A stretch of 64,000 bases of DNA, from contig JAFPWU010000010.1 of NCBI GenBank assembly GCA_017412715.1, positions 124,001 to 188,000 of the forward strand, given 5' to 3'. This DNA comes from Clostridia bacterium. Lineage in GTDB: Bacteria; Bacillota; Clostridia; Christensenellales; Aristaeellaceae. The first letter of the stretch is position 1; each line of letters starts with the position of its first letter. The notes beneath the pieces were generated by a model. That model was not told the origin of the DNA. It did not search any database and saw nothing but the letters and a program-made list of their open reading frames with translations. Shown in pieces: positions 9,632-45,691 of this stretch. A program made the position numbers and the translations under genes.

Positions 9632-9710
9632 GCTTCCCTCCGGATTTTCTCCGCGTTTGTATCTTTTCAGCCGCTCCGCTTTATGGGCTGAACAGTTCCG
9701 CGTAATTTGG

Positions 9711-9757
9711 AAAAAACGCGGCCCCTTCCGGCGGATTATCCCGCCGGAGGGGGCCGC
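9711..9757 (-). terminator. Intrinsic terminator of the rhamnose operon
   Basis: A 17-base GC-rich stem (9718-9734 with 9741-9757, one mismatch) closed by a short AT loop. On the minus strand it is followed by six T residues (plus-strand A run 9711-9716). It lies 25 bases past the rhaD stop. Confidence 0.9.
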
Positions 9758-27700: not shown

Positions 27701-28482
27701 CCTTCCCGGGCACCAACTGCGAATATGACAGCGCCCGGGCCATGCGGGAAGCCGGCGCGGAGGCGGAGATCTTCGTCATCCGGAACCGGACCGCGGAGGA
27801 GATCGCCCGCTCCAGTGAGCTGTTTGCCTCCCGGGTGCGGGACAGCCAGATGATCTTTATTCCCGGCGGCTTCTCCGGCGGCGACGAGCCGGACGGCAGC
27901 GCGAAGCTGATTACCGCCTTCTTCCGGGGGGCGGAAGTCCGGTCCGCCGTCACGGACCTGCTGGAAAACCGGGACGGACTCATGTGCGGCATCTGCAACG
28001 GCTTCCAGGCCCTGATCAAGCTGGGGCTGGTCCCCTTCGGCCGGATTCTGGAGACGGATGCCCACGCCCCTACCCTGACCTTTAACACCATCGGCCGCCA
28101 TCAGAGCCGGATTGTCCGCACAAAGGTGGTCAGCAGCCTGAGCCCCTGGCTGCGCCAGGCCAGGCCGGAGGGCATCTACCTGGTGCCCATCAGCCACGGC
28201 GAGGGCCGGTTCCTGGCGGAGGAAAGCGTGCTGCGGGATCTGATGGCCCGCGGCCAGATCGCCACCCAATACGTGGATCCGGAGGGCCGTCCCTCCATGG
28301 ACATCGCCGACAATCCCAACGGCAGCCTCTGGGCCATCGAGGGAATCACCAGCCCCGACGGCCGGGTCTTCGGCAAGATGGGCCACAGCGAGCGCGTCGG
28401 AAAGGGGCTGTACAAAAACGTCCCCGGGGATTATGATATCGGTATGTTCCGCTCCGCGGTCGCCTACTTCAGACAGGATTAA
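24769..28482 (+). CDS. purL: Phosphoribosylformylglycinamidine synthase, single-chain
   Basis: Makes FGAM from FGAR with ATP and glutamine. The 1237-residue protein is the large one-chain type that combines PurS-like, PurL and PurQ functions: an N-terminal PurS-like region (about 1-150), a linker with TYWSDHCRHTTF, two PurM-like halves (NETHNHPTEIEPFGGAATC; GAIGGKDSMSGSFEDL), and a C-terminal glutaminase with the nucleophile in CGICNGFQAL and its His/Glu partner in SHGEGRF. No separate purS or purQ is needed. ATG at 24769 behind a GAGGTAA ribosome site. Confidence 0.96.
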   Translation: MVYRIFVEKKPGLDNEASALLSDARTFLGITALEKVRLLNRYDAENITPEAFDLAVREVFSEPPLDLTSGEADTEGAAAVFAVEYLPGQFDQRADSAVQCVQMLTQGSRPLIRSARVYLLYGALSEADILEIKKYVINPVEAREASLEKPETLAADYAIPTEVATLQGFTDLDRAGLEAFVRDYGLAMDAEDISFCQQYFRQEGRNPTITEIRMLDTYWSDHCRHTTFLTEIDSVRFQDPVLEAAWGRYLAARKELGRESKPLCLMDLATVAAKALRKKGLLEKLDESEEINACTVRMDVTVDGAVQPWLLLFKNETHNHPTEIEPFGGAATCIGGAIRDPLSGRAYVYGAMRVTGAADPTRPVSETLPGKLPQRKLVTTAAAGYSSYGNQIGLATGIVDELYHPGYAAKRMEIGAVIAAAPAENVRRERPAPGDVVILLGGATGRDGIGGATGSSKAHNAHSVETCGAEVQKGNAPEERKLQRLFRNPAATKLIKRCNDFGAGGVSVAIGELADGLEIDLDAVPKKYEGLDGTELAISESQERMAVVVTAEDADTFLSLAAAENLQATPVARVAAEPRLRMHWNGKTIVDISRDFLNSNGAPKHITMAPESSRPAETAPVLTGDFRQDTLNLAGSLPFCSRQGLSERFDSTIGAGTVLMPFGGKYQATPIQAMVQKVSLEKGETDTCTLMSWGYDPELSSRSPYHGAYLAVTDSVAKLIAAGSSYEDIYLTFQEYFEKPGTDPRRWGKPLAALLGAFDAQMNLGIGAIGGKDSMSGSFEDLDVPPTLVSFAVTTGKTGEIISSEFKAPGHPVAVLSPEYDAQGLPVTESLLALFRRVTRLMREGKILSCRAGEIGGPLGSALKMAFGSRLGMEIAEGWSLEELFTPKYGSLIVELSEDLPEGRLLGRITSDPVFTLRGSRVTLAEVMNSYLGTLEPVYPTQAPGGRKEVSIPQISYQASSWPAPALRTARPRVLIPAFPGTNCEYDSARAMREAGAEAEIFVIRNRTAEEIARSSELFASRVRDSQMIFIPGGFSGGDEPDGSAKLITAFFRGAEVRSAVTDLLENRDGLMCGICNGFQALIKLGLVPFGRILETDAHAPTLTFNTIGRHQSRIVRTKVVSSLSPWLRQARPEGIYLVPISHGEGRFLAEESVLRDLMARGQIATQYVDPEGRPSMDIADNPNGSLWAIEGITSPDGRVFGKMGHSERVGKGLYKNVPGDYDIGMFRSAVAYFRQD

Positions 28483-28627: not shown

Positions 28628-30310
28628 ATGGCTTACCTTTCTGATATTGAAATCGCCCAGAGCTGCCCGATGCAGCCCATCCAGGAGATCGCCGCCCGGG
28701 CCCACGTGCCGGAAAAGTTCGTGGAAGCCTACGGCCGCCACAAGGCCAAGATCGATCCCGCCCTCCTCCGGGAGACGGACCGTCCCGCTGGCCGGCTGAT
28801 CCTGGTCACCGCCATGACCCCCACCCCCGCCGGGGAAGGAAAAACCACCACCACCATCGGCCTGGCGGACGGCCTGCGCCGCATCGGCAAGGACGTCACC
28901 GTGGCCCTGCGGGAGCCCTCCCTTGGCCCGGTCTTCGGCATCAAGGGCGGCGCCGCCGGCGGCGGATATGCCCAGGTGGTGCCCATGGAGGATATTAACC
29001 TGCATTTCACCGGGGACTTTCACGCCATCGGCGCGGCCAACAATCTGCTGGCCGCCATGCTGGATAACCATATTCAGCAGGGGAACGCCCTGGGCATCGA
29101 TCCCCGGAAGATTACCTGGAAGCGCTGCGTGGACATGAACGACCGGCAGCTGCGCTTCGTGGTGGACGGGCTGGGCGGCAAAGCCAACGGCACGCCCCGG
29201 GAGGACGGATTTGACATCACCGTGGCCAGCGAGATCATGGCGGTCTTCTGCCTGGCCAGCGACCTGCAGGATCTGAAGGAAAGGCTGGGCCGCATCGTGG
29301 TGGCCTACACCTATGACGACCGCCCCGTTACCGCGGGGGATCTGAAGGCGGTGGGCGCCATGGCCGCCCTGCTGCGGGACGCCCTGAAGCCCAACCTGGT
29401 CCAGACCCTGGAGGGCACCCCCGCCTTTGTGCACGGCGGTCCCTTCGCCAATATCGCCCACGGCTGCAACTCCGTGATGGCTACCCGGATGGCCCTGCGC
29501 ATGGGGGACTATACCGTCACCGAGGCGGGCTTCGGCGCGGATCTGGGGGCGGAGAAGTTCCTGGACATCAAATGCCGCATGGCCGGCCTGACCCCGGACG
29601 CGGTGGTCGTGGTCGGCACGGTCCGGGCCCTGAAGATGCACGGCGGCGTGGACAAGAAGAACCTGGCGCCGGAAAACCTGCCCGCCCTGGAGAAGGGAAT
29701 TCCCAACCTGCTGCGCCATGTGCGGAACATCCGGGAGGTCTATCATCTGCCCTGCGTGGTGGCCATCAACCGCTTCCCCACGGATACGGACGCGGAGATT
29801 GACTTCATCATCGCCAAATGCCGGGAGCTGGGGGTCAACACCGTCCTCAGCACCGTCTGGGCCGAGGGCGGCAAGGGCGGCGAGGAGCTGGCCCGGGAGG
29901 TGGTACGCCTCTGCGAGGAAAAGAACCCGGCGGAAACCTTCACCTTCTCCTATGACCTGGATTGCAGCATCGAGGAAAAGCTCCAGGCCATCGTGACCCG
30001 GATCTACGGCGGCAGCGGCGTCACCCTGACCCCCGCCGCCCGGAAGCAGGCGGAGCAGCTGACCGCCCTGGGATACGGCGGCCTGCCCATCTGCGTGGCC
30101 AAAACCCAGTACAGCTTCAGCGACGATCCCGGGAAGCTGGGAGCTCCCGAGGGCTTCACCGTCACCGTGCGGAACCTGAAGGTCTCCGCCGGCGCCGGAT
30201 TCGTCGTGGCCCTCACCGGGGATATCATGACCATGCCCGGCCTGCCGAAATCCCCTGCCGCCGAGCGCATCGACGTAGACGAGGACGGAAAGATCACCGG
30301 ACTGTTCTGA
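28628..30310 (+). CDS. fhs: Formate-tetrahydrofolate ligase
   Basis: Makes 10-formyl-THF from formate, ATP and THF. The 560-residue protein has the P-loop [34 protein letters not shown] and the [19 protein letters not shown] block, all diagnostic. AGGAGG lies 6 bases upstream of the ATG. Its position after the purine genes fits, as both PurN and the AICAR transformylase use 10-formyl-THF. Confidence 0.97.
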
Positions 30311-32860: not shown

Positions 32861-34003
32861 GTGAGCACCCCTGACATGGAACCCTTTCGCCCGCCGGAAT
32901 CTCCCGGGGATGTAAAAGCGGATCTGATCTATCTCTGCGGCTGCGCGGTCAACGGCACCGCTGCGGACAAAGCCCGCGTGGACCGGATGGACCTGACCGC
33001 GCTTTATCAGACCGCCCAGCGCCACATGCTGACGGCGGTTGCGGCCCATGCGCTGGCGGCTGCCGGGGTCAGGAACCCCGCCTTTCTCTGGGCAAAGGAG
33101 CGGGCCGTCCGGACCGCGGCCATGATGGATGCCGAACAGGCCAAAATTCTGGAAAAGCTGGAATCGGCTGGAATCTGGTACATGCTGCTGAAGGGCGCGG
33201 TTTTAAGGGATTACTATCCGGCTTACGGGATCCGCGAAATGTATGACCGGGATATTCTCATTGACGGGGATCGGGCCGGGGATGTCCGAAACATCATGAA
33301 GGAGCTTGGGTTCTCCGTGGAGGAATATGATGAAGAGGCCCACGGCTGCTGCCGCAAGCCGCCGATGATCATCTTTGAAATGCACCGGCGGCTGATGGGG
33401 CCGATGAGCGGAAAAGAGATTTATGCTTATTATCTGGACGTAAAAAAGCGGCTGCTGAAGGATGCGGGAAACGCCTTCGGCTTTCATCTGAAGGCGGAAG
33501 ACTTCTATGTGTATCAGGTGGTCCATGAGTATAAGCATTTTTCCAATGAGGGCACCGGGCTTCGCCCGCTTCTGGATACCTATGTCTATCTGAAGAATCA
33601 TGACCTGGATATGAACTATGTCAGGGCCGAGGTGAAAAAGCTCGGAATAGAGGACTATGAGCGGATGAACCGGTCTCTGGCCCTGCATCTGTTCGGAGGC
33701 GGGACGCTGACCGATGCGGAGCAGGCCGGACTGGACTATGCGCTCTCTTTCGGAACCTACGGAAGGGAGGAAAACTTTGCCCGAAATCTGCTCGAAAAGG
33801 AAGGAAAAAAGGGATACTTTTTATCCAGGCTGACCCTGCCCTATGCCAGGATGCTGGAAATATACCCGGTCTTGAAAAAGCTCCCGGTGCTGTATCCCTT
33901 CTGCTGGGCCCATCGGCTGCTTCATGCTCTCTTCTGTAAAAAGGATAAGGTCCTGGCCCAGCTGAAGGCCGGTCTGGCCTGGAAGGACAGGCGTCAGCCC
34001 TGA
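32861..34003 (+). CDS. NTP_transf_5-type nucleotidyltransferase
   Basis: A 380-residue protein of the uncharacterised nucleotidyltransferase family PF14907. It has the diagnostic MLLKGAVLRDYYP block (Lys111) followed by MYDRDILID with Asp129 and Asp131 as the likely metal-binding pair of a nucleotidyltransferase. Family members occur beside PqqD-like, HPr-kinase-like and lasso-peptide genes, where a role in peptide tailoring has been proposed. The start is a GTG at 32861 with AGGAGG 10 bases upstream; an in-frame TTG at 32840 lacks one. It has its own promoter and is followed by a catalytically degraded relative. Confidence 0.8.
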   Translation: MSTPDMEPFRPPESPGDVKADLIYLCGCAVNGTAADKARVDRMDLTALYQTAQRHMLTAVAAHALAAAGVRNPAFLWAKERAVRTAAMMDAEQAKILEKLESAGIWYMLLKGAVLRDYYPAYGIREMYDRDILIDGDRAGDVRNIMKELGFSVEEYDEEAHGCCRKPPMIIFEMHRRLMGPMSGKEIYAYYLDVKKRLLKDAGNAFGFHLKAEDFYVYQVVHEYKHFSNEGTGLRPLLDTYVYLKNHDLDMNYVRAEVKKLGIEDYERMNRSLALHLFGGGTLTDAEQAGLDYALSFGTYGREENFARNLLEKEGKKGYFLSRLTLPYARMLEIYPVLKKLPVLYPFCWAHRLLHALFCKKDKVLAQLKAGLAWKDRRQP

Positions 34004-34061
34004 TTCGGTTTTCGCGGCCGCCGGAGCGGTTTCAAAGGCTCCCGCGCCGGCTTCTTCTTTG

Positions 34062-34090
34062 TTGTAAAATCCTCTGCTCCATGCTACAAT
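34062..34090 (+). promoter_or_regulatory. Promoter of the second nucleotidyltransferase-like gene and genes downstream
   Basis: TTGTAA (34062-34067), 17-base spacer, TACAAT (34085-34090); transcription would start about 17 bases before the ATG at 34115. It may drive the run up to the pyruvyl transferase. Confidence 0.65.
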
Positions 34091-34114
34091 GGCAGGGAAG
34101 GAACGGGCTGAAAA

Positions 34115-35317
34115 ATGGAGAGGATGATGAAAAACAGAAGAGGATCTGACGGAATCGAAGCGCTGAAGCGGCACTGCTTCAGGGAGCTCCGGCTCTCGGA
34201 CCGGGACGTGGCGCTGCTGCGTCTTTCCGTCCGCAGGGACGCTTCTCCCGCGGATCTGTTTTCCTTTTATCAGACGGTGGATTTTGATGCGCTCCAGGGA
34301 CAGCAGGCCTGTGCGCTGGCCTCCCTCAGCCGGAGAATGGAGGACCGAGGCGTCCCGGAGGAGCTTGTTCCCCGTGTGAAGGGAATCTTCCGGTATCATT
34401 CCGCGCGAAACGCCTCGCAGATGAAAGAGCTCTACAATTTCCTGCAAAAGGCGAATCAGGCGGGGGCGGACGTGATGCTCCTGGACGGCGCCGCCATGAA
34501 GGCATATTATCTGCCGCAGGCGGTCCGCTATATGGGCGCTTTTTCCCTCCGGATAAAAGAGGGCCAAGCCGGGAACGCGATCCGGGCTTTGAAAGAAGCG
34601 GGAGATTATGCCGTCAGCACCGGCGCGCGTCATCAGCTGGTCTTTCAGAGCCGGCAAAATCCGGGAATCCGGTTCGTCTGTTCTCCGGACCGTGATTCCG
34701 GAGCCGATCCGGGCGAAGATTTCCGGGCGGAAGGCGCCGTTGAAACCTCCTTCCGAGGGGAACGGGTTTTCATTCCTTCCCGCGAAGCGCTGCTTTTTCA
34801 AATCCTGTCCGGGATTTTTCAGGCCGCTTTAAGCGGAGACTGCTTCTGTTCCGGACGGCTTCAGTGGGCGCTGGACAGCGCCTTTCTGTCCGGGGAGGAT
34901 GGCTTCCGGTGGGAAAAGCTCCGGGAATTGTGCCGCCGGCAGGACCGGACCACCGAAATGCTGACCATGCTGAAGATCCTGAAGGATCTTTTCCCCGCCC
35001 TTGTTCCGGAGGAAGCCTTTTCCCATCTGTCGCTGAGCGAGGCGGAAAAGAAACGGATGCCCCTTTTCCTCCGATTCATTCAGGTGAAGGAAAAGCATGC
35101 GTCGCTTGTACAGGCCGGCGCGGGGAAACGGAAATCGCTCCGGTATGATTTCTGCCTGCTCAGGCTGTACTGGTACAGAAACCGCTGCCTGGAAAAGCGT
35201 TCCGGATTGGCTGCGGACCTGTTTTCCTTTCCTTCCTTTCTAAAATCCAGCCTCGGCGCGGAAACGTGGCCGGAGCTTTTCAGATTCATTTTAACAGGAC
35301 TGCGAGAAACGATATGA
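34115..35317 (+). CDS. Degenerate NTP_transf_5-like protein
   Basis: A 400-residue protein with the same overall shape as its upstream neighbour. The LLKGAVLRDYYP block reads LLDGAAMKAYYLP, so the Lys has become Asp, and the MYDRD block reads MGAFS (about residues 140-144), so both catalytic Asp are missing. It is therefore probably not an active nucleotidyltransferase, but it is intact and full length; it may be a binding or scaffold subunit. The last codons overlap the start of the HPr-kinase-like gene by four bases (ATGA), which indicates coupled translation. Confidence 0.6.
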   Translation: MERMMKNRRGSDGIEALKRHCFRELRLSDRDVALLRLSVRRDASPADLFSFYQTVDFDALQGQQACALASLSRRMEDRGVPEELVPRVKGIFRYHSARNASQMKELYNFLQKANQAGADVMLLDGAAMKAYYLPQAVRYMGAFSLRIKEGQAGNAIRALKEAGDYAVSTGARHQLVFQSRQNPGIRFVCSPDRDSGADPGEDFRAEGAVETSFRGERVFIPSREALLFQILSGIFQAALSGDCFCSGRLQWALDSAFLSGEDGFRWEKLRELCRRQDRTTEMLTMLKILKDLFPALVPEEAFSHLSLSEAEKKRMPLFLRFIQVKEKHASLVQAGAGKRKSLRYDFCLLRLYWYRNRCLEKRSGLAADLFSFPSFLKSSLGAETWPELFRFILTGLRETI

Positions 35318-36369
35318 ACAGGCTGAAAACATTAGAACGGGTGCGGATCAGGGCCAGCGAAGAAGAAACAGAAGGATTTTTCGCGCGTTTGGAGCAGGAA
35401 ACGGAAAGCCTGCCCGGCTTCCATATTCTGTTCGGGCATCACGTGCTTCTGCTCAGGTTTCCGGATGAGGAAACCATGCTGAAATATCGCGAGATTCTTG
35501 ATCTGATCCGCACCGAACCCGCGGGAGAACCCGATGGAACCATTACGGTCTGGTCAGGCCGCCCCGAGGATTATTTAAACATCGGCAGCGGTCCCGAAAG
35601 CGCCGCCTGCTGGGAATGCTCCGGAAAAGCCGGTCAGATCCGGTTTGTGAAGTGGCCGGACAGAATCCTGGCCTGCCATTTCCCGGACAACCGGCAATAC
35701 ATCATCATGAACGGCCCCCTAGAGGATTATGTTCCCTACTGGGCTCCCTTTCACTGGGAATTCCATCAGTTTGCGATGAGCCATGGCTATGCCTTTGTGC
35801 ACAGCGGCGCCGTGGGGCTGAACGGCGAGGGGGTGCTGCTCTCCTCCATGGGCGGATGCGGAAAGTCGACAACGGTGTTAAGCTGTCTGCTGGACGGCTT
35901 TGACTATGTTTCCGATGACTATCTCCTGCTGGAGCCGAAGGCCGCGGCCGCTTACCCGCTGTATAACTGCGGCATATTAAATCAGGACAGCCTGGACCGT
36001 CTTCCGGAGCTGAAGCCCCGGGTCTCCGGCCCTGTCCTCAACCGGCCCGGCCGCTACATTGTCGACCTTTCCGGATACCGAAATCAGTTCTGCCGCGGGA
36101 TGAAAATCAAGGCCATCGTCCACCCGCGCGTTCTTCCCGCAGGCGAGCCCCGGGAAGCGGCCCGGATCAGAAAGGATCCCCTCCAGACCGCCAAGCGGGA
36201 GCTGCTCATCTCCAGCGCCCGCCAGAACGGATTCCTCATGATGAGGGATCAGGATTCCCTTCATGCCCTGTTCGGGTCCGTGAGCAGTCTCCCGTCCTAC
36301 GAACTGCTCCTGAGCCCGGACCGTCAGTCGAACTGCCTTGCGCTCAGAGAGCTTTTGGGCACGCTGTAA
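35314..36369 (+). CDS. HPr-kinase-like P-loop protein
   Basis: A 351-residue protein. The N-terminal 150 residues are unassigned; the C-terminal half starts with HEFHQ-type and HSGAVGLNGEGVLLSS segments, then the P-loop GGCGKSTT (residues 180-187) and SDDYLLLE (200-207), the arrangement seen in HprK/P C-terminal kinase domains and in the HprK-related proteins of lasso-peptide and PqqD clusters. Classical HPr kinase partners (HPr, CcpA) are not nearby. In paeninodin-type clusters such a kinase phosphorylates the C-terminal residue of the precursor peptide. The start was set at ATG 35314 in ATGA overlap; an in-frame upstream start at 35266 lies inside the previous gene. Confidence 0.75.
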   Translation: MNRLKTLERVRIRASEEETEGFFARLEQETESLPGFHILFGHHVLLLRFPDEETMLKYREILDLIRTEPAGEPDGTITVWSGRPEDYLNIGSGPESAACWECSGKAGQIRFVKWPDRILACHFPDNRQYIIMNGPLEDYVPYWAPFHWEFHQFAMSHGYAFVHSGAVGLNGEGVLLSSMGGCGKSTTVLSCLLDGFDYVSDDYLLLEPKAAAAYPLYNCGILNQDSLDRLPELKPRVSGPVLNRPGRYIVDLSGYRNQFCRGMKIKAIVHPRVLPAGEPREAARIRKDPLQTAKRELLISSARQNGFLMMRDQDSLHALFGSVSSLPSYELLLSPDRQSNCLALRELLGTL

Positions 36370-36399
36370 GATAAAAAAACAGGAAAAGGAGAAATCAGA

Positions 36400-36822
36400 A
36401 TGTACGCTTTGAATCTTCCCCGGATGTTCTATGATGTGTCTGAAAACCACGCCATCATCATCGACTCAGGAACCGGCAACTATTTCCTTTTGAATGTTCT
36501 TGCCTCCAAGGTCTTCCTGTATCTTACCAGAGGCGCTTCCCCCGAGGAGCTCGGCGCGGCGCTTTCAAAGGTGCCCGGATGCCCCGAGGATATTCAGAAG
36601 CGCATCGAGGACTTCTGCGGGCAGCTGGTCAGCGAATCCATCCTGAACACCGATGCGTCCGAGCAGTTCGACGGGAATACAGATGCGGGGCCCTTCTGGT
36701 TTTCGGAAGGCGTCGAATTCCGGATGGACAAGTTCGGCGATATGGCGGACCTGATCGTGGCGGATCCGATTCATGATGTGGATGAAGCCTGCGGCTGGCC
36801 GGTTCTTAAAGAGGGCGACTGA
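36400..36822 (+). CDS. PqqD/RRE-like protein with C-terminal tail
   Basis: A 140-residue protein. Residues 1-85 match the small winged-helix PqqD fold used as a RiPP recognition element: an N-terminal strand (YDVSENHAIIIDSGTGNYFLLN), then LASKVFLYLTRGASPEEL and a C-terminal helix (IEDFCGQLVSESIL). Free-standing PqqD is about 90 residues; here a further 50 follow, acidic and ending in DMADLIVADPIHDVDEACGWP (residues 114-134 in part). I recall similar D-P-I-H-x-V-x-E-x-G-W-P tails from small proteins next to HprK-like genes, but cannot verify that. The tail could be a precursor-like substrate fused to its recognition domain. It is 30 bases after the kinase gene, with AAAGGAGA upstream. Confidence 0.75.
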   Translation: MYALNLPRMFYDVSENHAIIIDSGTGNYFLLNVLASKVFLYLTRGASPEELGAALSKVPGCPEDIQKRIEDFCGQLVSESILNTDASEQFDGNTDAGPFWFSEGVEFRMDKFGDMADLIVADPIHDVDEACGWPVLKEGD

Positions 36823-36825
36823 TTC

Positions 36826-38238
36826 ATGGCCAGAATTTCCGTTCTCATTGTCAGCTATAATTACGGCCGCTTTCTTCGGGCGTGTATCGAAAGCGTTCTT
36901 GCGCAGACCTGCTCCGAAGAGCTGGAAATCGTGCTGGTGGACGACGGCTCCACCGATGAAACGGCCGGGCTGCTCCGCGCGTTTCCCATGGTGCGCCGCG
37001 TATTCCAGGCCCATTCCGGCGTCGCCGCCGCCCGCAACCGCGCGCTCAGAGAAGCTTCCGGTGATTATATCGCCTTTCTGGATGCCGACGATCTGTGGAA
37101 GAAGGATAAACTGGCCCTTCAGCTGAAGTATCTCCGGGAGCACCCGGACTGCGAAATCGTATTTACCGGGTATGAAAACTTCCTCGAGGACGGTGTTTCC
37201 CCGGATGAAAAATGGGTCAGGCAGAATATTCTCTTCGCCGCGAAAAACAGGACCTGCCTGCCGACCGCCCTTTTTACCCGAAGCGTCATGCTTCGCTGCG
37301 GGGATTTTGACGAAAGCTTCCGGCACGGCGAGGACACGGAATGGACCAGCCGGCTGGGCTATCTCGGCATACACTCCGGCTTTCTGGAGGACCGGTTGCT
37401 GTTGCGCCGGCTGCACGGGAAGAACCTCACCAAAGACAGCGAATCCGGACCTTCCGCGGAATCCATTGCAAAGGCCTTTCAGGTGATCCGGAGAAATCTG
37501 CAGCTTCAGAAAGAGCGCGGCTCCGGAGAAGAGGGGATCTCTGTCCTGATTCCGGCCTTTGACGCGGAAGCCTATATGGCCGAATGCATCGAAAGCGTTC
37601 GTAAGCAGCAGCCTCAGCTCCAGGGACTGCCTATGGAAATCATCGTCGCGGACGACGGATCAGGGGACCGTACCGCGGCGATCGCCGAGGCCGGCGGAGC
37701 CCGGGTGCTCCGTCTTGCGCACAGAGGGTCGGCGGCCGCAAGGAACGCGGCACTCCTCCAGGCGAGATATGAGTATATTTTTTTCCTCGATGCCGATGAC
37801 CGGGCCGCTCCTTCCGCATTGCGGGATCTGCTGCAGGCCCTTCGGGCTGAAAAAGGCCGGATGGCGGTTTTCGCGAGGGCCAGGGATTTCAGCGTGGAAA
37901 CGGATGAAGCCGGCGGCAGCTCCGAGCGCTTCTCCCCCCGTGCCTACTCCGGGTGTCTGCCCGGAGGTTCCCTGATCCGGAAGCAGGCGTTTCAGACCGT
38001 CGGCGTCTTTAACGAAGAGCTGAAGACGGGAGAAACCGTTGACTGGCTGGGGCGCTTCAGGGAAAGCGGTCTGCCTTCTTCCATGCTGGATTGCGTGACC
38101 CTGGAACGCCGGATTCACCGGGCCAGCACGGGAGCCGTGAACAGGGAGCAGGAGCAGCGCGATTATGCGCGCATTGTCAGGGAACACCTGAAGAGGATGA
38201 AGCATGAAGAAAATATCCCTGATCATCCCGGTCTATAA
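36826..38238 (+). CDS. Tandem two-domain family 2 glycosyltransferase
   Basis: A 470-residue protein with two GT-A units. Unit 1 (about 1-225) carries ISVLIVSYNYGRFLRACIES, VDDGSTDETA and the metal-binding LDADDLW; unit 2 (about 235-460) carries ISVLIPAFDAEAYMAECIES, ADDGSGDRTA and LDADDRA. Both DxD motifs are kept, so both units may transfer sugars, as in the two-activity polymerases of capsule synthesis. It starts three bases after the PqqD-like stop, and its own last 35 bases overlap the next glycosyltransferase gene. Confidence 0.88.
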   Translation: MARISVLIVSYNYGRFLRACIESVLAQTCSEELEIVLVDDGSTDETAGLLRAFPMVRRVFQAHSGVAAARNRALREASGDYIAFLDADDLWKKDKLALQLKYLREHPDCEIVFTGYENFLEDGVSPDEKWVRQNILFAAKNRTCLPTALFTRSVMLRCGDFDESFRHGEDTEWTSRLGYLGIHSGFLEDRLLLRRLHGKNLTKDSESGPSAESIAKAFQVIRRNLQLQKERGSGEEGISVLIPAFDAEAYMAECIESVRKQQPQLQGLPMEIIVADDGSGDRTAAIAEAGGARVLRLAHRGSAAARNAALLQARYEYIFFLDADDRAAPSALRDLLQALRAEKGRMAVFARARDFSVETDEAGGSSERFSPRAYSGCLPGGSLIRKQAFQTVGVFNEELKTGETVDWLGRFRESGLPSSMLDCVTLERRIHRASTGAVNREQEQRDYARIVREHLKRMKHEENIPDHPGL

Positions 38239-39052
38239 TGCGGAACCCTGGTTCCAGGAAATGCTGAACAGCGTGCTTGCGCAGACCTGGCCGCATATCC
38301 AGCTGGTGATTGTAAATGACGGCTCGACCGACCGGTCCGAAGACATTTTCCTCGGCTGTGAACCCGCCCTGAAGGAAAGGCTCAGCGAGGTCATCTATCT
38401 CCGGCACGAACAGAATCTCAGCGCATCTGAAGCAATTAACACGGCCCTTCCCTGGTGCGACGGGGAATACCTTTGCTGGGCTGACGCGGATGATGTCCTG
38501 CATCCGGACAGCATTCGCAAAAAGGCGGAATATCTCGACCGGTTTCCCTCCCTCGCGATGGTGCGGCACAACAGCGTTATCTTTCTTCAGAACAGCGGCC
38601 GCTATGCGGAGATTGCGAAGCCCGAAGATAAACAGGTTAAAAACATCTTTGAGGATCTCCTGTTTTCACGCACGTTCTGTTGCCCCGGCTGTTACATGCT
38701 GCGCTCGGAGGTGTTTTTCGCCTGCTATCCCGGCCGAAAAATCCCCGTATCCCGGCAGGGACAGAATATGCAGATGCTTCTCCCTCCCGCCTCTGTTTCC
38801 GACTGCGGATATATGGATGACCGTCTTTTTCTGTACCGAATCCATGGCGCCAATCATTCTCTGAGCTTTTCCCGCTTTCCGGATCTGCTGGAGCGGAAAA
38901 AGGAATTTGAGCAGCTTCAGCTCCGGGTGCTGCCTCACTGCCGCTGCGACCGGGAATGGTGGGAAGCCAGGATTCACCGATACTGGCAGCAGGAGACGGA
39001 AGACCTGAAAAAAAGCTATCTGTCCGCCATACGGCGGCATAAAGGGATCTGA
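38204..39052 (+). CDS. Family 2 glycosyltransferase
   Basis: A 282-residue single GT-A protein: MKKISLIIPVYNAEPWFQEML, IVNDGSTDRSEDI, and CWADADDVLHPDS as the metal-binding site. The last 60 residues are basic and may pack on the membrane. The ATG lies inside the preceding gene and is preceded by GAAGAGGATG, so the two are coupled. Acceptor and sugar are unknown. Confidence 0.88.
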   Translation: MKKISLIIPVYNAEPWFQEMLNSVLAQTWPHIQLVIVNDGSTDRSEDIFLGCEPALKERLSEVIYLRHEQNLSASEAINTALPWCDGEYLCWADADDVLHPDSIRKKAEYLDRFPSLAMVRHNSVIFLQNSGRYAEIAKPEDKQVKNIFEDLLFSRTFCCPGCYMLRSEVFFACYPGRKIPVSRQGQNMQMLLPPASVSDCGYMDDRLFLYRIHGANHSLSFSRFPDLLERKKEFEQLQLRVLPHCRCDREWWEARIHRYWQQETEDLKKSYLSAIRRHKGI

Positions 39053-39054
39053 AG

Positions 39055-40131
39055 ATGAAAAGAGCCGGCGTAGTCACGTTTTTTGACCATCCGAATTACG
39101 GCGCGGTGCTCCAGGCCTACGGGATGAAATACGCGCTGGAAAAGCTGGGCTGTTCCGTCACTTTTATCAGAAACGCCCGGGAGCCGAATCCGGCTCCGGA
39201 AATAGACCGCCGCCTGCTGGTGCTGGAGGCCCTCCGCCGCAGGCGGGATGCCCTTCGTCCGCTCAGAAAACCCTTTGCCGATTTTGCGGAGAAATATTTC
39301 CGGACGGAAAAGCTGGACGGGCAGCATGATGTGAGCGCCGGGTATGACTTTTTCATCGTCGGCAGCGATCAGGTCTGGAACCTGGAGATCACAGGGTATG
39401 ATCCCTTCTGGTTTCTTGATTTTGCTCCGCCCGAAAAACGCTTTTCCTACGCGGCCAGCTTCGGAACGGATCGCCTGCAGGAAAACAGCCTTCCCTGGTA
39501 CAGGGAAAGGCTGTCTGGTTTCGCAAATCTTTCTGTCCGTGAGGCCTCCGGGCAGGAAATCATCCGGGAACTGACCGGGAAGGAAGCGATCCTCTGCCCG
39601 GATCCGGCCCTTCTGCCCGAACGCGGCGTATGGGAAAAGCTGATGGTCCCTGGAGAAGAGGCCGTTGTTTTATATACAGCGGAATTTGATGCCGAGCTGT
39701 ATCAGGATGCAAAAGCGGACGCGGCGGCAAGAGGGCTCCCCCTGGCCGTGTTCGGCGCCAATCAGCCTCCGTCCGCGGGCGAAACGGCCGTCCCTTCTCC
39801 TGAAGCGTGGCTGGGCAGTATCGCCAATGCCGCCGCGGTCTATACAAATTCCTTTCACGCGCTCATCTTTTCCCATATTTTTCATAAGGAGCTGCGCATC
39901 AGGCCGCTGGCCAGAATGAAGAACCGGAACAGCCGCCTTTTTTCCTTTATCGCGTCCATGGAGGAAACGCTTACGGAGGAAGGAAGCAGGCCCGGTCTTT
40001 ATCTCCTGAAGGATTCCGGCAGCCGGAAAAAAGCGGATGCCCGGCTGGAGGCGCTCCGGCATTCCGGGTATGCCTGTCTGCGGAAGATCACGGATTCCCC
40101 TTTCCCGCAAGCAGATAGTATTTCTTTCTGA
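39055..40131 (+). CDS. Polysaccharide pyruvyl transferase-family protein
   Basis: A 358-residue protein of the PF04230 family, which adds pyruvate ketals to sugars of exopolysaccharides or related acceptors. Seen are TFFDHPNYGAVLQAYGMKYAL at the start, the FIVGSDQVWN signature, and a C-terminal TNSFHALIFSHIFHKEL block. It starts two bases after the glycosyltransferase stop. Its 3' end overlaps the oppositely oriented Fe-S gene by 44 bases. Confidence 0.9.
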   Translation: MKRAGVVTFFDHPNYGAVLQAYGMKYALEKLGCSVTFIRNAREPNPAPEIDRRLLVLEALRRRRDALRPLRKPFADFAEKYFRTEKLDGQHDVSAGYDFFIVGSDQVWNLEITGYDPFWFLDFAPPEKRFSYAASFGTDRLQENSLPWYRERLSGFANLSVREASGQEIIRELTGKEAILCPDPALLPERGVWEKLMVPGEEAVVLYTAEFDAELYQDAKADAAARGLPLAVFGANQPPSAGETAVPSPEAWLGSIANAAAVYTNSFHALIFSHIFHKELRIRPLARMKNRNSRLFSFIASMEETLTEEGSRPGLYLLKDSGSRKKADARLEALRHSGYACLRKITDSPFPQADSISF

Positions 40132-41227
40132 AAACCTCATAGGGCAGCGCGGCTGCGTCCTTCATGGCCAGTTGTCTGAAGGGATGGGCCGGGGCCGGGC
40201 TTACAAGCCGCGGCTGCATGGCTTTCTCCGGCGGAAGGCGCCTGTAGGTGCCCGATTTCTCCAGGTCATGACAGAATTTCCGTCCCTTTTCGGAATTGCC
40301 CAGAACCAGCGAAATCCCTTCCGCGGCGGAAAAAAGACGCGGCTCCTCCGTTTCCTCAAATCCGTGGAAATCTCCGACCGTGATATCCGCGCTGCGGCGG
40401 TATCCCGCGTAATGGCAGGCGCTGCAGGCCGGGCGCAGGATGAGGCCGCTGATATAGAGACGCCAGTAGAAATTGTTCAGAAGGAATTCTCTCCCTTCGC
40501 TGCCGTCCTCCATCCGCCAGGAAACCCCGTATCCCATCGGTTCCCGCTTGTCCCGGAAAGAATAATCCTCCACAGGGGACTTTTCCTGCGCCTTCAGATA
40601 TTCCCAGTTTTTCCGCCATACGAGAGGAGAGCCTACCCCGTTGCAGAGGATCTCAACCAGAAGGAGCTGATGATCCGTCATTTCTTTCGGAAGATCAGAA
40701 AGACTCGCTTTCAGCCCGTCCACCTGGCACGGCGTTCCACTGAAGAGGACGCTTTCCCCCCGCGCCAGCTGTTCGCGAATTTCCCTAAAGCAGCCGCGCA
40801 GATCGCTTTCAAGATATTTGGAATCGCTCAGAAGGGACAGTTCCCCGGGATCGTCAACGGATCGGTGAAACACCTTCCCCTTCCGGAAAGCAGCGCCGTA
40901 CACCCGGGCTTTTCTCTGCCCGGCGAAGAAGGCCTCAGCCAGGGCCGTGAACGCGCCGCCGGACGCGCTGCGCCTCAAAACCTCCGGGCGGGCATGCTGA
41001 AAAGCATACGCCTCGGTATCCCTGGCCAGTCCTTTCTCTCTCTCCCCGGTCAGCGGGCAAATGGCCGCGCACCGTCCGCACCGTGTGCATCGGGCTTCGT
41101 CGATCCGGGGATAACGGAAACCCTCCTCGTCCGGTTCCATGCGCAGGGCCGAGGAGGGGCAAACCGCCGCGCAGGCTCCGCAGCCGCTGCAGTCCTTCTT
41201 GTCCGTAAACAGGCCAATCATTCTCAT
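40088..41227 (-). CDS. FrhB/FdhB-like iron-sulfur protein (F420 hydrogenase beta-subunit family)
   Basis: A 379-residue protein with two ferredoxin-type 4Fe-4S motifs at the N-terminus (CSGCGACAAVCP and CTRCGRCAAICP), then the family's SASGGAFTAL and LFSGTPCQVDGL blocks, plus ACSACHYAGYRRSADITVGDF. Homologues in Firmicutes are routinely found beside polysaccharide pyruvyl transferases in exopolysaccharide clusters, where the redox reaction is unknown. It converges on the pyruvyl transferase gene with a 44-base overlap of the coding ends. Confidence 0.88.
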   Translation of the reverse strand: MRMIGLFTDKKDCSGCGACAAVCPSSALRMEPDEEGFRYPRIDEARCTRCGRCAAICPLTGEREKGLARDTEAYAFQHARPEVLRRSASGGAFTALAEAFFAGQRKARVYGAAFRKGKVFHRSVDDPGELSLLSDSKYLESDLRGCFREIREQLARGESVLFSGTPCQVDGLKASLSDLPKEMTDHQLLLVEILCNGVGSPLVWRKNWEYLKAQEKSPVEDYSFRDKREPMGYGVSWRMEDGSEGREFLLNNFYWRLYISGLILRPACSACHYAGYRRSADITVGDFHGFEETEEPRLFSAAEGISLVLGNSEKGRKFCHDLEKSGTYRRLPPEKAMQPRLVSPAPAHPFRQLAMKDAAALPYEVFRKKYYLLAGKGNP

Positions 41228-41298: not shown

Positions 41299-42312
41299 TC
41301 ATGCGCGCCATAGGCGTCGGTTATACACAGAGCGAAGATAGCAGACCGCCCCTCCCAGACTGATCAGCCGGTGCCTGAAAAGAAACACCGGCCAGTTCCG
41401 GGGCCGAAGAAGATTTTTGATCTTCATGCCGGCCACTGCCCGCTTCACAGGATCCTCCTGCAGAAACAGAACCTGCCTGCGGTTCCGGACCGCCCAGGGA
41501 ACTTTGACGGCGGAATCGTAAAAATCATGTACCGCCGCAATCAGGGTCATTGAATATACATAGTCAGGGAACGCGGCCCTGACCCCTGGGCTGCCCCCGG
41601 AGGCCGCCCTCTCCGCTTTCCGGATGGCCTCAAGGTACCATGCCGCAGCCCCCTGAGTGACGCTCCTCATCATGGAAACCGTGTCCTGGCTGTAGCTGTA
41701 AATGATAAGATCCGAAATGACCATTTTATCGCACCGGTTCAGCGCGCGGATCAGAAATTCCGAATCCTCCGAACGGCGAAGAGATTCATCGAAAAACAGA
41801 TGGTTGGACATCAGGAAATCTCGGCTGTAAAACTTCGCCCAGGCACCCATCCGGCGCGTCGGAGCGGAAATCATCCAGATTTTTGCCGGTTCCAGCTCCT
41901 CGCCGGAAATCAGCCTGTTGGGGGCTTTGTACCTGCTGGTCACGGTCCTCTTCCCTTTTCGGAATCCCGCGGCAAGAATATCCGGCCCATATTTCTCCAG
42001 CAGGGAAACAGCTTTCACCATCTCCGGTTCACACTGGTCATCCGCGTCGACAAAGCAGATCCACTCTCCCCCCGCGTGCCTCATCCCTTCGTTTCGGGCC
42101 TGGGGCAAGCCGGTTTCTGAATGGCAGAGAAGCACTTCCGGATGTTGGTCCGCCAGTTCGGCCGCAAGCCGCGGGGTATCGTCCGCGGATCCGTTTTCAA
42201 CAATGATGATTTCGAAAGGGACGACCGTCCGGAACAGATTGAGGATGGAATCAACGGACCGGACAATATAGTCAGCAGCATTATGCGCCGGTATGATAAA
42301 GGATATCTTCAT
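41299..42312 (-). CDS. Family 2 glycosyltransferase
   Basis: A 337-residue GT-A enzyme: MKISFIIPAHNAADYIVRSVDS, IVENGSADDTPRL, CFVDADDQCEPEM for metal binding, then a C-terminal basic part that ends on the membrane-facing SLGGAVCYLRSVYNRR. It is divergently placed to the LCP gene and probably co-transcribed with the Fe-S gene downstream (71-base gap). Confidence 0.88.
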   Translation of the reverse strand: MKISFIIPAHNAADYIVRSVDSILNLFRTVVPFEIIIVENGSADDTPRLAAELADQHPEVLLCHSETGLPQARNEGMRHAGGEWICFVDADDQCEPEMVKAVSLLEKYGPDILAAGFRKGKRTVTSRYKAPNRLISGEELEPAKIWMISAPTRRMGAWAKFYSRDFLMSNHLFFDESLRRSEDSEFLIRALNRCDKMVISDLIIYSYSQDTVSMMRSVTQGAAAWYLEAIRKAERAASGGSPGVRAAFPDYVYSMTLIAAVHDFYDSAVKVPWAVRNRRQVLFLQEDPVKRAVAGMKIKNLLRPRNWPVFLFRHRLISLGGAVCYLRSVYNRRLWRA

Positions 42313-42692: not shown

Positions 42693-43517
42693 ATGAATAA
42701 AAGACATGACTGGCTAGCCGGGCAGACGCGCGAACCCGAACTGATTCTTCTGCTCGGCTGCAATTTCTGCAAGGATGGAAACTATGACCGTTCCGATGCC
42801 ATCCTCGTTGCATCGCCGGACCCGAAAACCGGCACCGTTAAGCTGGCCAGTATTCTTCGGGATATCCAGGCCGACCTGCACGAGTATGGCATGGAGAAAA
42901 TCAATGCAGCGCTTCTTCATGGCGGACCGGAATTTGCGGTTCGGATCATCAACGAGTGCTTTCATCTGAGCATCCGGCATTATATCCTGGTGGACATGTA
43001 CGGTCTCGTCAACGTGATTGATCTCCTGGGCGGGATTGATGTGGAAATCACGGAAATGGAGCGTATCTTCCTCAATTGCTGGGTCAGGGATCTTGCCATG
43101 CAGTTTCAGGACGGCATCTTTCCGCCACCCCTGGAAAAGGCCGGCCTGGTTCATATGGACGGACGCACAGCCCTCTCCCATGCGCGCAACAGAGTGATCG
43201 GCACGGATTTTGCCCGGGCGGACCGGCAGCGAACAGTGCTGAAGGCCATGGCTGAGAAGATAAAGGAAGAATCTGATCCCGTGAAGCTGATACGACTCTT
43301 CTTCAAGGGGCTCAGATATGTGAAAACAGACCTTTCCGCCCTTCAGATCGCATCGATGGCCCTCCCTGTATGGCGGGCCGGAAATCTGAGTTTTCCTTCC
43401 ATCCGTATTCCGGTTGATAACACTTACAAAGTATCCACAGACGGAAACTGGCATTTTGAGATCGACTTTGAAGCAAACGCGCAGGAACTGGGGCGGTTCT
43501 TCTCGGAGGAAGTTTAA
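42693..43517 (+). CDS. LytR-CpsA-Psr (LCP) domain protein without membrane anchor
   Basis: LCP enzymes move glycopolymers from undecaprenyl pyrophosphate to peptidoglycan. The 274 residues show the LCP core: LILLLGCN, YDRSDAILVASPDPKTG, SILRDIQADL with the Arg-Asp pair, GMEKINAALLHGGPEFAV, GLVNVIDLLGGIDVEI, and the C-terminal ALSHARNR with ADRQRTVL. Canonical LCP proteins carry an N-terminal membrane helix and about 60-80 residues before the core; here the core starts at about residue 15 and an in-frame TGA lies 15 bases upstream of the ATG, so no anchor is encoded. The active site would then face the cytoplasm unless it is exported in some other way. Confidence 0.85.
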   Translation: MNKRHDWLAGQTREPELILLLGCNFCKDGNYDRSDAILVASPDPKTGTVKLASILRDIQADLHEYGMEKINAALLHGGPEFAVRIINECFHLSIRHYILVDMYGLVNVIDLLGGIDVEITEMERIFLNCWVRDLAMQFQDGIFPPPLEKAGLVHMDGRTALSHARNRVIGTDFARADRQRTVLKAMAEKIKEESDPVKLIRLFFKGLRYVKTDLSALQIASMALPVWRAGNLSFPSIRIPVDNTYKVSTDGNWHFEIDFEANAQELGRFFSEEV

Positions 43518-43628
43518 GGAAGCGCTGATTTCTTCCGTTCCGGCGGCTCTGGCCTTCGTTCAGGCGATGACGGCCGGAAAACCGCGCGTCCGCTCCGGGC
43601 GAGCCTGCGCCCGGATAAGGAGGTACCT

Positions 43629-45413
43629 GTGAAAAGCCCAGCCCTTTCCTGGATTTCTGATGTGTCCGGCGCCAAAAAAATCTATATTCTTCTGCTTTCC
43701 CTGGTTCAGAGCGTGAACGGCGTCACCGGCGTGATCTATGCGCTTCTGATGCGGAATATCGTGGATGCCGCTGTGTCCCGGAACGCTGCCATGTTCTTGT
43801 ACTGGATGGCGGCCATTGTGCTGCTGGTGGGGGTGCAGCTCATCCTGCGTGCGCTCTTCCGCTGGCTCTCGGAGCTTTCCCGCTCGAGCCTGGAAAACAT
43901 CTTCAAGACGCGCCTCACCGACGTCCTGCTCCACCGGGATTATCTGCAGGTCAGTGCGCTGCATTCGGCCGAGTGGATGAATCGTCTGACCAACGACACC
44001 GTTGTCGTCGCCGACTCCCTGACCGAAATTCTCCCGGGTCTCTCCTTCCTGATGGTGAAGCTGGCCAGCGCGCTGGTGATGATTCTGACGCTGGAGCCGC
44101 GGTTTGCCTCCATCCTGATCCCCGCAGGCCTGCTAATGGCCGTATTTAACTGGCTTCTGCGCCGAAGGCTGAAGCAGTTTCACAAAGGCATTCAGGAAGC
44201 CGACGGCCGGCTGCGGGTCTTCCTCACCGAGCATATCGGCAGCATGCTGATGATCCGCTCCTTCGCTGCCGAGGAACAGACAGCGCAGCAGGCCGGGGAA
44301 AGGATGGAGGCGCATAAATCAGCCCGCATGCGGCGCAATCGCTTTTACAATTTCTGCAGTACCATCCTCGGCGCCACCACGGGCGGCATGCATCTTCTCT
44401 GCCTGGGCTGGTGCGGCTACGGAATTCTGAAGGGCACCGTTACCTTCGGTACCCTCACCGCGATGTCGTCGCTGATATCCCAGATTCAGGTTCCCTTTAC
44501 CGATCTTTCCGGCTTTTTACCGCAGTACTATACCATGCTGGCCAGTGCAGAACGCCTTATGGAAGCCGAGTCCTTTGACAGGGCTTCTGCACCGGATCTG
44601 ACGGTTCCCGCGGTACGGGAGCTCTATCGTTCCGGTCTTTCCGCCTTCGGCCTGCAGAATGTGTCCTTCTCCTATTATCCGCCGGTGGAGCGGGTGATAG
44701 ACCTGAGCAAGAAAAACATGCCCGTCGCGATCCGTAACCTGTCCCTCCAGATCCGTAAAGGCGAGTATGTGGCCTTCACCGGCCCCAGCGGGTGCGGAAA
44801 GTCCACGGTTCTGAAACTTCTGATGTGCGTCCTTCAGCCGGATACCGGTTCCCGCTATTTTCTGGATGCGGAAGGCCGGAAGGGAAATCTGACCGCTGCT
44901 TACCGCCGGCTTTTTGCCTATGTTCCCCAAGGGAATATGCTCATGAATGGAACCATCCGGGATATAATTGCTTTCGGAAAACCAGAAGCGGCCGCAGACG
45001 ATGCGCAGATCCGCCATGCACTGGAGGTTGTCAGCGCCGACGGCTTTGTGGATTCCCTGGAGCAGGGCGTGGATACACTCTTGGGTGAGCACGGAGCCGG
45101 CCTTTCCGAAGGCCAGATGCAGCGTATTGCCATCGCCCGCGCCATATTTTCGGATTCCCCTGTTTTGCTCCTGGACGAAGCGACCAGCTCTCTGGATGCC
45201 GAAACTGAGCAGAGACTGCTCAAAAATCTGCGCCGACTGACGGACAGGACGGTGGTCATCGTCACTCATCGCCCCGCGGCCCTCAGCATCTGTGATCGGG
45301 TATTCCGCTTTACAGCGCAGGGAATCATTGAAATATGTAAAATCAGCCAGGAGTCATTGGGGAGCGGAGAGTTCTCTGTACCGGTGTCGGGATGTGACTT
45401 TCAGAGAAGATAA
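43629..45413 (+). CDS. ABC exporter, fused membrane and ATPase domains
   Basis: A 594-residue half-transporter: six predicted helices in the first 320 residues, then an ATPase domain with Walker A GPSGCGKST (starting about residue 385), signature LSEGQMQR (about 490) and Walker B VLLLDEATSSLD (about 515). There is no N-terminal C39 peptidase domain, so it is not a classical bacteriocin exporter. The start is GTG 43629 with AAGGAGG upstream. It probably exports the product of the cluster, or a lipid-linked glycan. A 110-base gap separates it from the LCP gene and starts with TAAGGAAGCGCTGA. Confidence 0.9.
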   Translation: MKSPALSWISDVSGAKKIYILLLSLVQSVNGVTGVIYALLMRNIVDAAVSRNAAMFLYWMAAIVLLVGVQLILRALFRWLSELSRSSLENIFKTRLTDVLLHRDYLQVSALHSAEWMNRLTNDTVVVADSLTEILPGLSFLMVKLASALVMILTLEPRFASILIPAGLLMAVFNWLLRRRLKQFHKGIQEADGRLRVFLTEHIGSMLMIRSFAAEEQTAQQAGERMEAHKSARMRRNRFYNFCSTILGATTGGMHLLCLGWCGYGILKGTVTFGTLTAMSSLISQIQVPFTDLSGFLPQYYTMLASAERLMEAESFDRASAPDLTVPAVRELYRSGLSAFGLQNVSFSYYPPVERVIDLSKKNMPVAIRNLSLQIRKGEYVAFTGPSGCGKSTVLKLLMCVLQPDTGSRYFLDAEGRKGNLTAAYRRLFAYVPQGNMLMNGTIRDIIAFGKPEAAADDAQIRHALEVVSADGFVDSLEQGVDTLLGEHGAGLSEGQMQRIAIARAIFSDSPVLLLDEATSSLDAETEQRLLKNLRRLTDRTVVIVTHRPAALSICDRVFRFTAQGIIEICKISQESLGSGEFSVPVSGCDFQRR

Positions 45414-45420
45414 TTAATGA

Positions 45421-45585
45421 ATGAAAGCTGGTCATAGCGCTGAGAACTTCTGCGCTGTTCGACATATTGCTTTGAATGTTCTCAAGAACATGGATGACAA
45501 AATGTCAGTGGCGCGCAGAAGGAGACACTGTGCTTACGGCGATGCTTACCTGGAAAAGGTTATTATGAAGCTCGTTCATGCGTAA
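45421..45585 (+). pseudogene. Transposase remnant (ISAs1/H-repeat type C-terminus)
   Basis: A 54-codon open frame, too short for a gene, that reads HSAENFCAVRHIALNVLKN, then an Arg-rich ARRRRH, and DAYLEKVIMKLVHA to its stop. This matches the C-terminal end of ISAs1-family (H-repeat, YhhI-like) DDE transposases, where the equivalent of AENFCAVRHIALNVL is AELFSGIRHIAINIL. The rest of the transposase is missing; in-frame stops lie directly upstream at 45415-45420. It marks a past insertion right after the ABC transporter gene. Confidence 0.75.
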
Positions 45586-45609
45586 GCCGTGCTTTGTTTT
45601 CCCCACCCC

Positions 45610-45638
45610 TTGCCTTCATGATTATTTTGAATTAAAAT
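45610..45638 (+). promoter_or_regulatory. Promoter of the L,D-transpeptidase gene
   Basis: TTGCCT (45610-45615), 17-base spacer, TAAAAT (45633-45638). Transcription would start near 45645, which excludes a start codon at 45644 and supports the ATG at 45692. Confidence 0.65.
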
Positions 45639-45691
45639 AGAGGATGTTCTGCGAACTGAGAATAAAAAGACAGGAGGTCAGGTACGCGGAA

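Follow-up and report, generated by a model that had tools for sequence, protein, structure and literature searches.

Introduction

Lasso peptide clusters of the pseudomycoidin and paeninodin type (PsmK-PsmN, PadeK) bring together an HprK-like kinase, an NTP_transf_5-type protein and a PqqD-type recognition domain (RRE), and the same three kinds of protein are encoded side by side in a 64,000-nucleotide stretch of a Clostridia bacterium assembly (GCA_017412715.1, contig JAFPWU010000010.1, positions 124,001 to 188,000), referred to here as the window. According to the parts of PMC9266682 that concern them, PsmK phosphorylates the C-terminal Ser of its peptide, and PsmN is needed for the hexose on the phosphorylated residue. 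Leaders recognized by RREs bind as a strand on beta-3, as stated in passages of the 2025 RRE-Finder update (PMC12710340), which also report an RRE fused to a glycosyltransferase (PF00535) and in this respect likewise link RRE and GT2 chemistry. The main text of that paper does not contain the words 'HprK', 'kinase' or 'nucleotidyltransferase', and the passages in question do not mention an RRE bearing its own precursor. The nearest published context that we have met is that of rumen Butyrivibrio, in which HPr kinase, nucleotidyltransferase and glycosyltransferase genes lie inside lasso clusters (relevant passages of PMC7533575).

In the window, two NTP_transf_5 genes (NT1 and NT2), an HprK-like kinase gene and a gene for a PqqD/RRE protein are tightly packed on the + strand and followed by GT2 glycosyltransferase genes. 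An initial annotation of this DNA, made from the letters alone, gave this gene set with its ATGA overlap at 35314, a 30-base gap before the PqqD gene and a 3-base gap to the first glycosyltransferase, all of which are present, and proposed a new system coupling phosphorylation or nucleotidylation to glycosylation, pyruvylation and export, without a lasso cyclase, leader protease or precursor.

Here, we compare this block with relatives from about a dozen phyla. The RRE protein continues into a C-terminal tail with a near-invariant DPIHxV...GW segment, and the tail travels with one clade of kinases and with GT2 enzymes. We conclude that the block works like the kinase/nucleotidyltransferase tailoring module of lasso clusters and yet lacks what defines membership of them. 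At about even odds (a probability of roughly 0.5), the block assembles phosphate and sugar under the guidance of an RRE whose own C-terminal tail supplies the peptide. In the literature searched, which left most subscription journals outside its coverage, neither DPIHEV nor DPIHDV was found, and no description of a fused-tail system was found by titles and abstract starts.

Results and Discussion

A precursor-like tail fused to the RRE protein

The lasso-type PqqD proteins among the loci compared stop soon after the RRE, whereas the RRE of this block continues into the DPIHxV...GW tail; the window protein is longer than a bare RRE and has the C-terminus ...FRMDKFGDMADLIVADPIHDVDEACGWPVLKEGD. 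Plasmid searches returned one full-length relative, on a Crinalium plasmid where genes for PqqD, nucleotidyltransferase, HPr kinase, FkbM methyltransferase and glycosyltransferase form a row and the PqqD protein ends in ...LEKFTDMEDLLLLDPIHEVDVEAGWPNAKTA; a kinase search gave the same record alone. No relative was confirmed on genome contigs with the window PqqD protein alone as query, and none of the tail PqqD was found on viral contigs. With the window and Crinalium PqqD proteins together as query, genome contigs yielded at least 80 loci, which with the window and the plasmid form a set of 82 (numbered here with an L); a second PqqD open reading frame (ORF) of L021, which has no tail, and L002, which duplicates the window locus, are left out of all counts.

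All 82 loci carry DPIHxV, the set being partly seeded by this motif. By our own assignment of record titles the RRE with its tail spans about 12 phyla: the titles name Cyanobacteria, Nitrospirota, Deltaproteobacteria, Chloroflexi, Bacteroidetes, Acidobacteria and Bacillota, and further Proteobacteria, Aminicenantes, Verrucomicrobia, Phycisphaerales, Acidimicrobiia/Microbacteriaceae and Elusimicrobia. Upstream of the motif, Pro stands at -15 in 63 of the 82 tails and Phe at -18 in 44, and this FxxP motif, where present, resembles the YxxP motif of lasso leaders.

The RRE itself is of the lasso type (B1/PqqD). PF05402 scores just above its cut-off on the window protein, a family profile search matched TbiB1 at E 8.8e-18, and the six best solved folds by Foldseek are TbiB1 (top, E 2.9e-4, with the TbiA leader) and the lasso B1 protein 6jx3, with leader peptides; of the lasso B1 proteins, TbiB1 and TfuB1 are the nearest solved sequences and folds. 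The AlphaFold2 model of the window protein (70 rows, mean pLDDT 87.6) has the strand-strand-strand-helix-helix-helix order of an RRE plus an additional strand from the tail, predicted at residues 109-112 and followed by a short helix at 115-120; pLDDT averages 96 over residues 101-110 and 71 over 111-120. From the DSSP assignment of this model and the published rule that leaders lie on beta-3 (passages of PMC12710340), we infer that the tail strand pairs with the RRE sheet in cis.

The absence of a precursor in the initial annotation is thus half right: there is no separate conserved ORF, and a precursor-like peptide is fused to the C-terminus of the PqqD protein. Among 1271 small ORFs collected from the loci, the sole family present in at least three is a trio in the rhizobial-type loci L049, L051 and L056, 4.5-6 kb away, and a separate leader/core precursor ORF was not found.

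The block recurs in distant phyla

Within 7 kb of the tail PqqD gene, a kinase is found in 71/82 loci, GT2 in 72/82, an NTP_transf_5 nucleotidyltransferase in 60/82 and an ABC transporter in 34/82, although ABC-type matches may be generic. Where at least 5 kb is available on both sides (n = 46) the figures are 43, 44, 41 and 23, respectively. A frequent order is PqqD-kinase-GT2-GT2-(ABC)-nucleotidyltransferase. The Clostridia loci L041, L054, L057, L058 and L067 are much like the window, with one or more NTP_transf_5 genes, then kinase, PqqD, GT2 genes, pyruvyl transferase and FrhB, which in L057 and L067 is followed by an ABC gene. The set therefore recurs as a block outside lasso clusters. 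The annotation had named two outcomes that would tell against its proposal, a cyclase always nearby and a lack of recurrence; both were looked for, and neither occurred.

Because the 82 loci were gathered by their tails, a collection free of that selection was made with a kinase alignment as bait; 1,171 genomes were searched (391 of the window's class, 296 of the Bacteroidetes phylum of L014, 244 of the cyanobacterial phylum of L003, Microseira, and 240 of the class of L046, Loktanella) and neighbourhoods then fetched. Kinases scoring above 120 bits and covering more than 280 of 340 model positions were called full-length, and the four in the bait alignment (window, L003, L014, L046) are not among the 28 obtained. 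The tail pairs with one kinase clade: a tail-bearing PqqD gene lies beside 25 of the 28 new full-length kinases (24 with DPIH, one with DPVH; in L218 and L220, both counted, it is 4.4 and 4.8 kb away), and of 74 lower-scoring kinases 27 have a PqqD gene within 3.5 kb, in none of which is there a tail. At a limit of 5 kb the latter figures are 30 and still zero; the low-scoring kinases mostly had about 3.5 kb of sequence, so that a PqqD gene could be missed. L227, of which L226 is a duplicate, is counted as full-length with a tail, and removal of the L226 rows reduces the lower-scoring list from 76 to 74 and its members with PqqD from 28 to 27; the remaining L226 row, a partial kinase of 139 bits, lacks a nearby PqqD gene. 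Several low-scoring-kinase loci contain a lasso cyclase (L160, L162, L163, L165, L166, L168).

The 25 new tail proteins have best identities of 30-91% to the 82 and are at most 85% identical to each other over 100 residues. Their mean commonest-residue frequency is 0.40 in the RRE, 0.54 in the leader-like part and 0.93 in DPIHxV, and the D, P, H, G and W of the tail are invariant. That the core hardly varies between distant phyla speaks for a single conserved function and against a diversifying antibiotic.

A longer tail (DPIHEVKEETGWTPEKDSIGYTKEET...) is seen in L223-L230, whose genomes measure 1.7-2.1 Mb and belong to the phylum of L003; there a kinase ORF of about 510 aa also gives a weak RRE match (24-48 bits), as if the kinase bore its own RRE.

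The kinase and its fusions to GT2

The window kinase has the P-loop GGCGKST and matches Hpr_kinase_C at E 0.0027, under the family cut-off. The His, Lys, Asp and Asp catalytic residues of paeninodin-type kinases are present: H163, K184, D201 and D225 do not vary among 10 aligned rows that include six lasso-type kinases, and across 64 family rows H163, K184 and D202 are invariant, D201 exceeds 90% and D225 varies. The conserved residues probably correspond to the published catalytic motif. Over almost its entire length the fold also matches that of PEPCK, an enzyme of small-molecule phosphotransfer.

Kinase and GT2 form one ORF in six of the 82 loci (L006, L014, L016, L023, L024, L055), and more such fusions occur in the kinase-bait set (L116, L118, L119, L149-L152). 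In all six fusions scanned with Pfam, both Hpr_kinase_C (below cut-off) and Glycos_transf_2 were recovered. These fusions tie phosphorylation to glycosylation, and together with the recurrence of the block they uphold that part of the initially proposed modification system. Pyruvylation falls outside the core, because the pyruvyl transferase is seen in the window and five Clostridia loci (cluster c7, downstream of the block; the adjoining FrhB_FdhB_C gene, cluster c8, is in the same six). A first iterated kinase model was dropped, since it matched far more ORFs than loci with apparent drift through the kinase-GT2 fusions; the kinase counts rest on a model rebuilt from aligned domains.

A conserved second NTP_transf_5 protein

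NT1 belongs to PF14907, as a PsmN-like NTP_transf_5 protein would, and retains its KG and DxD motifs in a motif alignment (Table 1); hexose transfer to a phosphorylated residue is its putative role. NT2 had been described as a degraded copy, which does not cover the case. A diverged second paralogue with a damaged DxD also follows NT1 in L041, L054 and L058, and L057 (6591-8942) and L067 (3056-5326) each have one long ORF whose first half matches NT1 and second half NT2 by blastp. NT2 is a conserved, inactive-looking paralogue that is probably non-catalytic, and the joined ORFs hint that an active-type and an NT2-type domain act as a pair.

Comparison with lasso clusters

The lack of a lasso cyclase and of a transglutaminase-type leader protease, both put forward at the outset, holds with the queries used: neither a cyclase nor a B2 match is present in the window, and Asn_synthase was not found in the source assembly, which is 54.7% complete. 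Among the 82 loci, many with short flanks, 81 are without a cyclase match; the cyclase model was positive on control lasso loci. In L022 a cyclase-like ORF lies at 7913-9757 (50 bits), on the strand opposite to the tail PqqD gene. Two B2 queries gave no significant match in any of the 82 loci, the window included. Of 45 whole genomes searched with PF13471, 13 score at or above its cut-off, a genome-wide count that is not tied to the loci; the window's genome barely does so, and on another contig (C29, the window being on C5).

Relative to PsmK-PsmN and PadeK, the block has no cyclase, B2 protease, separate precursor or conserved C-terminal Ser (Ser is last in 8 of the 82 tails, and the window tail ends in Asp); its tail is fused to the RRE, GT2 is part of the core, and the kinase forms a separate high-scoring group. 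None of the NCBIfam models reaches its cut-off on the PqqD, kinase and nucleotidyltransferase proteins tried. TIGR04352 and TIGR04355 (HprK-related kinases A and B) match weakly, at 21-38 bits against a cut-off of 200 (for TIGR04352, 31.3 bits with the window kinase and 24-36 with three other family kinases), as do TIGR04248 and TIGR04249 of the SynChlorMet cassette (15 and 24 bits against 125 and 100). A list of lasso-leader-like ORFs drawn up by regular expression was used for lasso controls alone, its F/Y/WxxP content being forced by the expression.

Some other loci are of separate interest. L120, L121, L156-L158, L164 and L167 combine a lasso-type kinase, a tail-less PqqD and NTP_transf_5 with no cyclase match in the fetched stretch, L167 and L121 have small ORFs starting with WxKP or YEKP, and these loci are possibly another cyclase-free kinase/nucleotidyltransferase peptide system. 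Locus L165, with cyclase, kinases, PqqD and NTP_transf_5, has three tandem lasso-like small ORFs at 1022-1564, all ending in Ser. A Priestia lasso cluster (L084, 211-7465) has DsbA, MauE/DoxX and VKOR-like genes with two tandem Cys-containing small ORFs, and encodes possible disulfide lasso peptides.

A model for the block and its alternatives

In the mechanism that we favour, the upstream part of the tail, lasso-leader-like in many members, would fold back as a strand onto its own RRE, which would place the near-invariant DPIHxV...GW segment within reach of the HprK/PEPCK-fold kinase. Together with the NTP_transf_5 protein and the GT2 enzymes, this kinase would build a phosphate-linked sugar, for which either the tail is the primer or another substrate is brought to it; additional glycosyltransferases and decorating enzymes would elaborate the product, and the ABC transporter, where present, would export it. 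By analogy with PsmK and PsmN of pseudomycoidin, as described in passages of PMC9266682, the block may thus perform phospho-glycosylation. A simple copy of paeninodin-type Ser phosphorylation is unsupported, because no hydroxyl residue of the tail is conserved. Modification could instead fall on the invariant His or an acidic residue; failing that, the tail would serve to dock a kinase whose target lies elsewhere. We lean slightly to a covalent primer over a pure docking handle, a tentative preference that falls a little short of an even chance. The fully specified version, in which the kinase phosphorylates DPIH on His or Asp, NTP_transf_5 adds a sugar to that phosphate and the GT2 enzymes build a glycan on the RRE-tail as protein primer, is unlikely in all its particulars; if true, it would be a peptide-anchored glycan pathway across about a dozen bacterial phyla.

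Several observations weigh against the favoured mechanism. Ser, Thr and Tyr are all absent after DPIH in 30 of the 82 tails, the window's included, and in 5 of the 25 of the bait set, and none is kept at one aligned position. DPIH is poorly placed in the AlphaFold2 model (pLDDT about 60), the window and several Clostridia are without the Pro of FxxP in the leader motif, and the leader region resembles three lasso precursors weakly, with 7, 24 and 171 of 5000 shuffles scoring as well and log-odds below 0. The kinase is undetected in 11 of the 82 loci, several near contig ends. In the bait set, the tail of L233 is degenerate, L222 has no PqqD found and L152 is cut by a contig end; the 120-bit line is post hoc, and L154 (119 bits) and L159 (113 bits), with near full coverage, have no tail PqqD. 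No protease that could release the tail is a conserved neighbour in the clusters examined. For PsmN, the review PMC9266682 also allows that it transfers a nucleotide in earnest, as its family name says, and that a glycosyltransferase of the host completes the reaction.

It is quite possible, if well below even, that the tail serves solely for docking or activation: bound by its own RRE and itself unmodified, it would recruit the kinase, perhaps with its fused GT2, to a separate acceptor such as a sugar, a lipid-linked glycan or a protein. A tail with no conserved hydroxyl residue would suit such a handle, as would its close pairing with one kinase clade, the resemblance of the kinase to PEPCK, and the families of ten neighbours scanned with Pfam as representatives, which include an epimerase, a sulfotransferase, a radical SAM protein, an SMP-30 protein and GT4 enzymes. 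However, both enzymes have relatives in lasso clusters whose substrates are peptides (passages of PMC9266682), and the His and acidic residues of the tail show little or no variation, as is common for residues that are modified.

We consider it improbable that the block is an ordinary capsule or teichuronic-type glycan cluster with the RRE protein and kinase as regulators of synthesis. GT2, pyruvyl transferase, LytR-CpsA-Psr (LCP) and ABC genes do surround the block, and its setting suggests an acquired surface-glycan island, since its GC content is below that of the upstream flank and it is absent from the corresponding loci of six relatives. In 2-kb steps, GC is 0.54-0.60 at 32-46 kb, compared with 0.63-0.68 upstream (20-32 kb) and 0.58-0.63 downstream (46-56 kb). 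The upstream gene 28628-30310, which by our own reading probably encodes formate-tetrahydrofolate ligase, matches 35 of 44 other genomes of the genus (full-length matches 83-91% identical), and the contig therefore fits the genus. Six of these genomes keep the order of this gene and its upstream neighbour 24769-28482, and in the 14-16 kb fetched beyond it NT1 through LCP are unmatched, with the ABC query matching weakly in L241. Among 45 genus and 308 family genomes the window PqqD is found in its own genome alone, and the block is likely an acquired island. Against such a cluster, neither Wzx/Wzy nor an initiating sugar-phosphate transferase was found among 20 window proteins scanned, and across many phyla the RRE-tail, kinase and GT2 stay together amid other genes that vary.

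A decaying lasso operon that has lost its cyclase and protease is very improbable, for while lasso B1 sequences and models are those closest in score to the RRE and the kinase and nucleotidyltransferase families are common to lasso clusters, the same architecture is found in many phyla with kinase motifs kept and the tail near-invariant, and cyclase matches are missing from all of the 82 loci, many with short flanks, except L022.

If the RRE-guided assembly system is correct, the block would connect glycan assembly with enzymes of peptide tailoring (HprK-like kinase, NTP_transf_5). Genome mining by short precursor ORFs or by cyclase would miss a leader-guided system with its peptide fused to the recognition domain, and DPIHxV...GW after a PqqD domain offers a simple handle for finding and testing such systems.

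Genes of the window block and its surroundings

The features of the block and the genes that follow it are collected in Table 1.

Table 1. Coordinates and supporting evidence for genes of the block and its downstream neighbours, in window positions
Feature	Coordinates	Strand	Evidence
NT1, NTP_transf_5 nucleotidyltransferase	32861..34003	+	PF14907 E 6.6e-37; KG and DxD (YDRDILI) kept
NT2, diverged NTP_transf_5 paralogue without DxD	34115..35317	+	PF14907 E 2.6e-11; motif alignment, blastp
HprK/PEPCK-fold kinase, full-length clade	35314..36369	+	H163, GxGKS, D201/D202, K247 kept
PqqD-type RRE protein with C-terminal tail	36400..36822	+	PF05402 23.5 bits (cut-off 23.4), AlphaFold, Foldseek
Fused tail FRMDKFGDMADLIVADPIHDVDEACGWPVLKEGD, residues 107-140: leader-like part and DPIHxV...GW core	36718..36819	+	
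Two-domain GT2 glycosyltransferase	36826..38238	+	PF00535, 2 stretches, E 3.9e-62
GT2 glycosyltransferase	38204..39052	+	PF00535 E 8.8e-30
Polysaccharide pyruvyl transferase	39055..40131	+	PF04230 E 1.4e-27
FrhB_FdhB_C / 4Fe-4S (ferredoxin-like) protein	40088..41227	-	PF04432 E 2e-18
GT2 glycosyltransferase, probable accessory	41299..42312	-	PF00535 E 3.8e-29
LytR-CpsA-Psr (LCP) glycopolymer transferase	42693..43517	+	PF03816 E 6.4e-28
ABC exporter, membrane and ATPase domains	43629..45413	+	PF00664, PF00005

A peptidase domain was not matched in the window ABC exporter, and an LCP search over the 82 loci matched in the window alone. From 42693 to 46978 the LCP glycopolymer transferase, the ABC exporter and an L,D-transpeptidase (YkuD) are encoded in succession, which may point to attachment of the product to the cell wall in this host.

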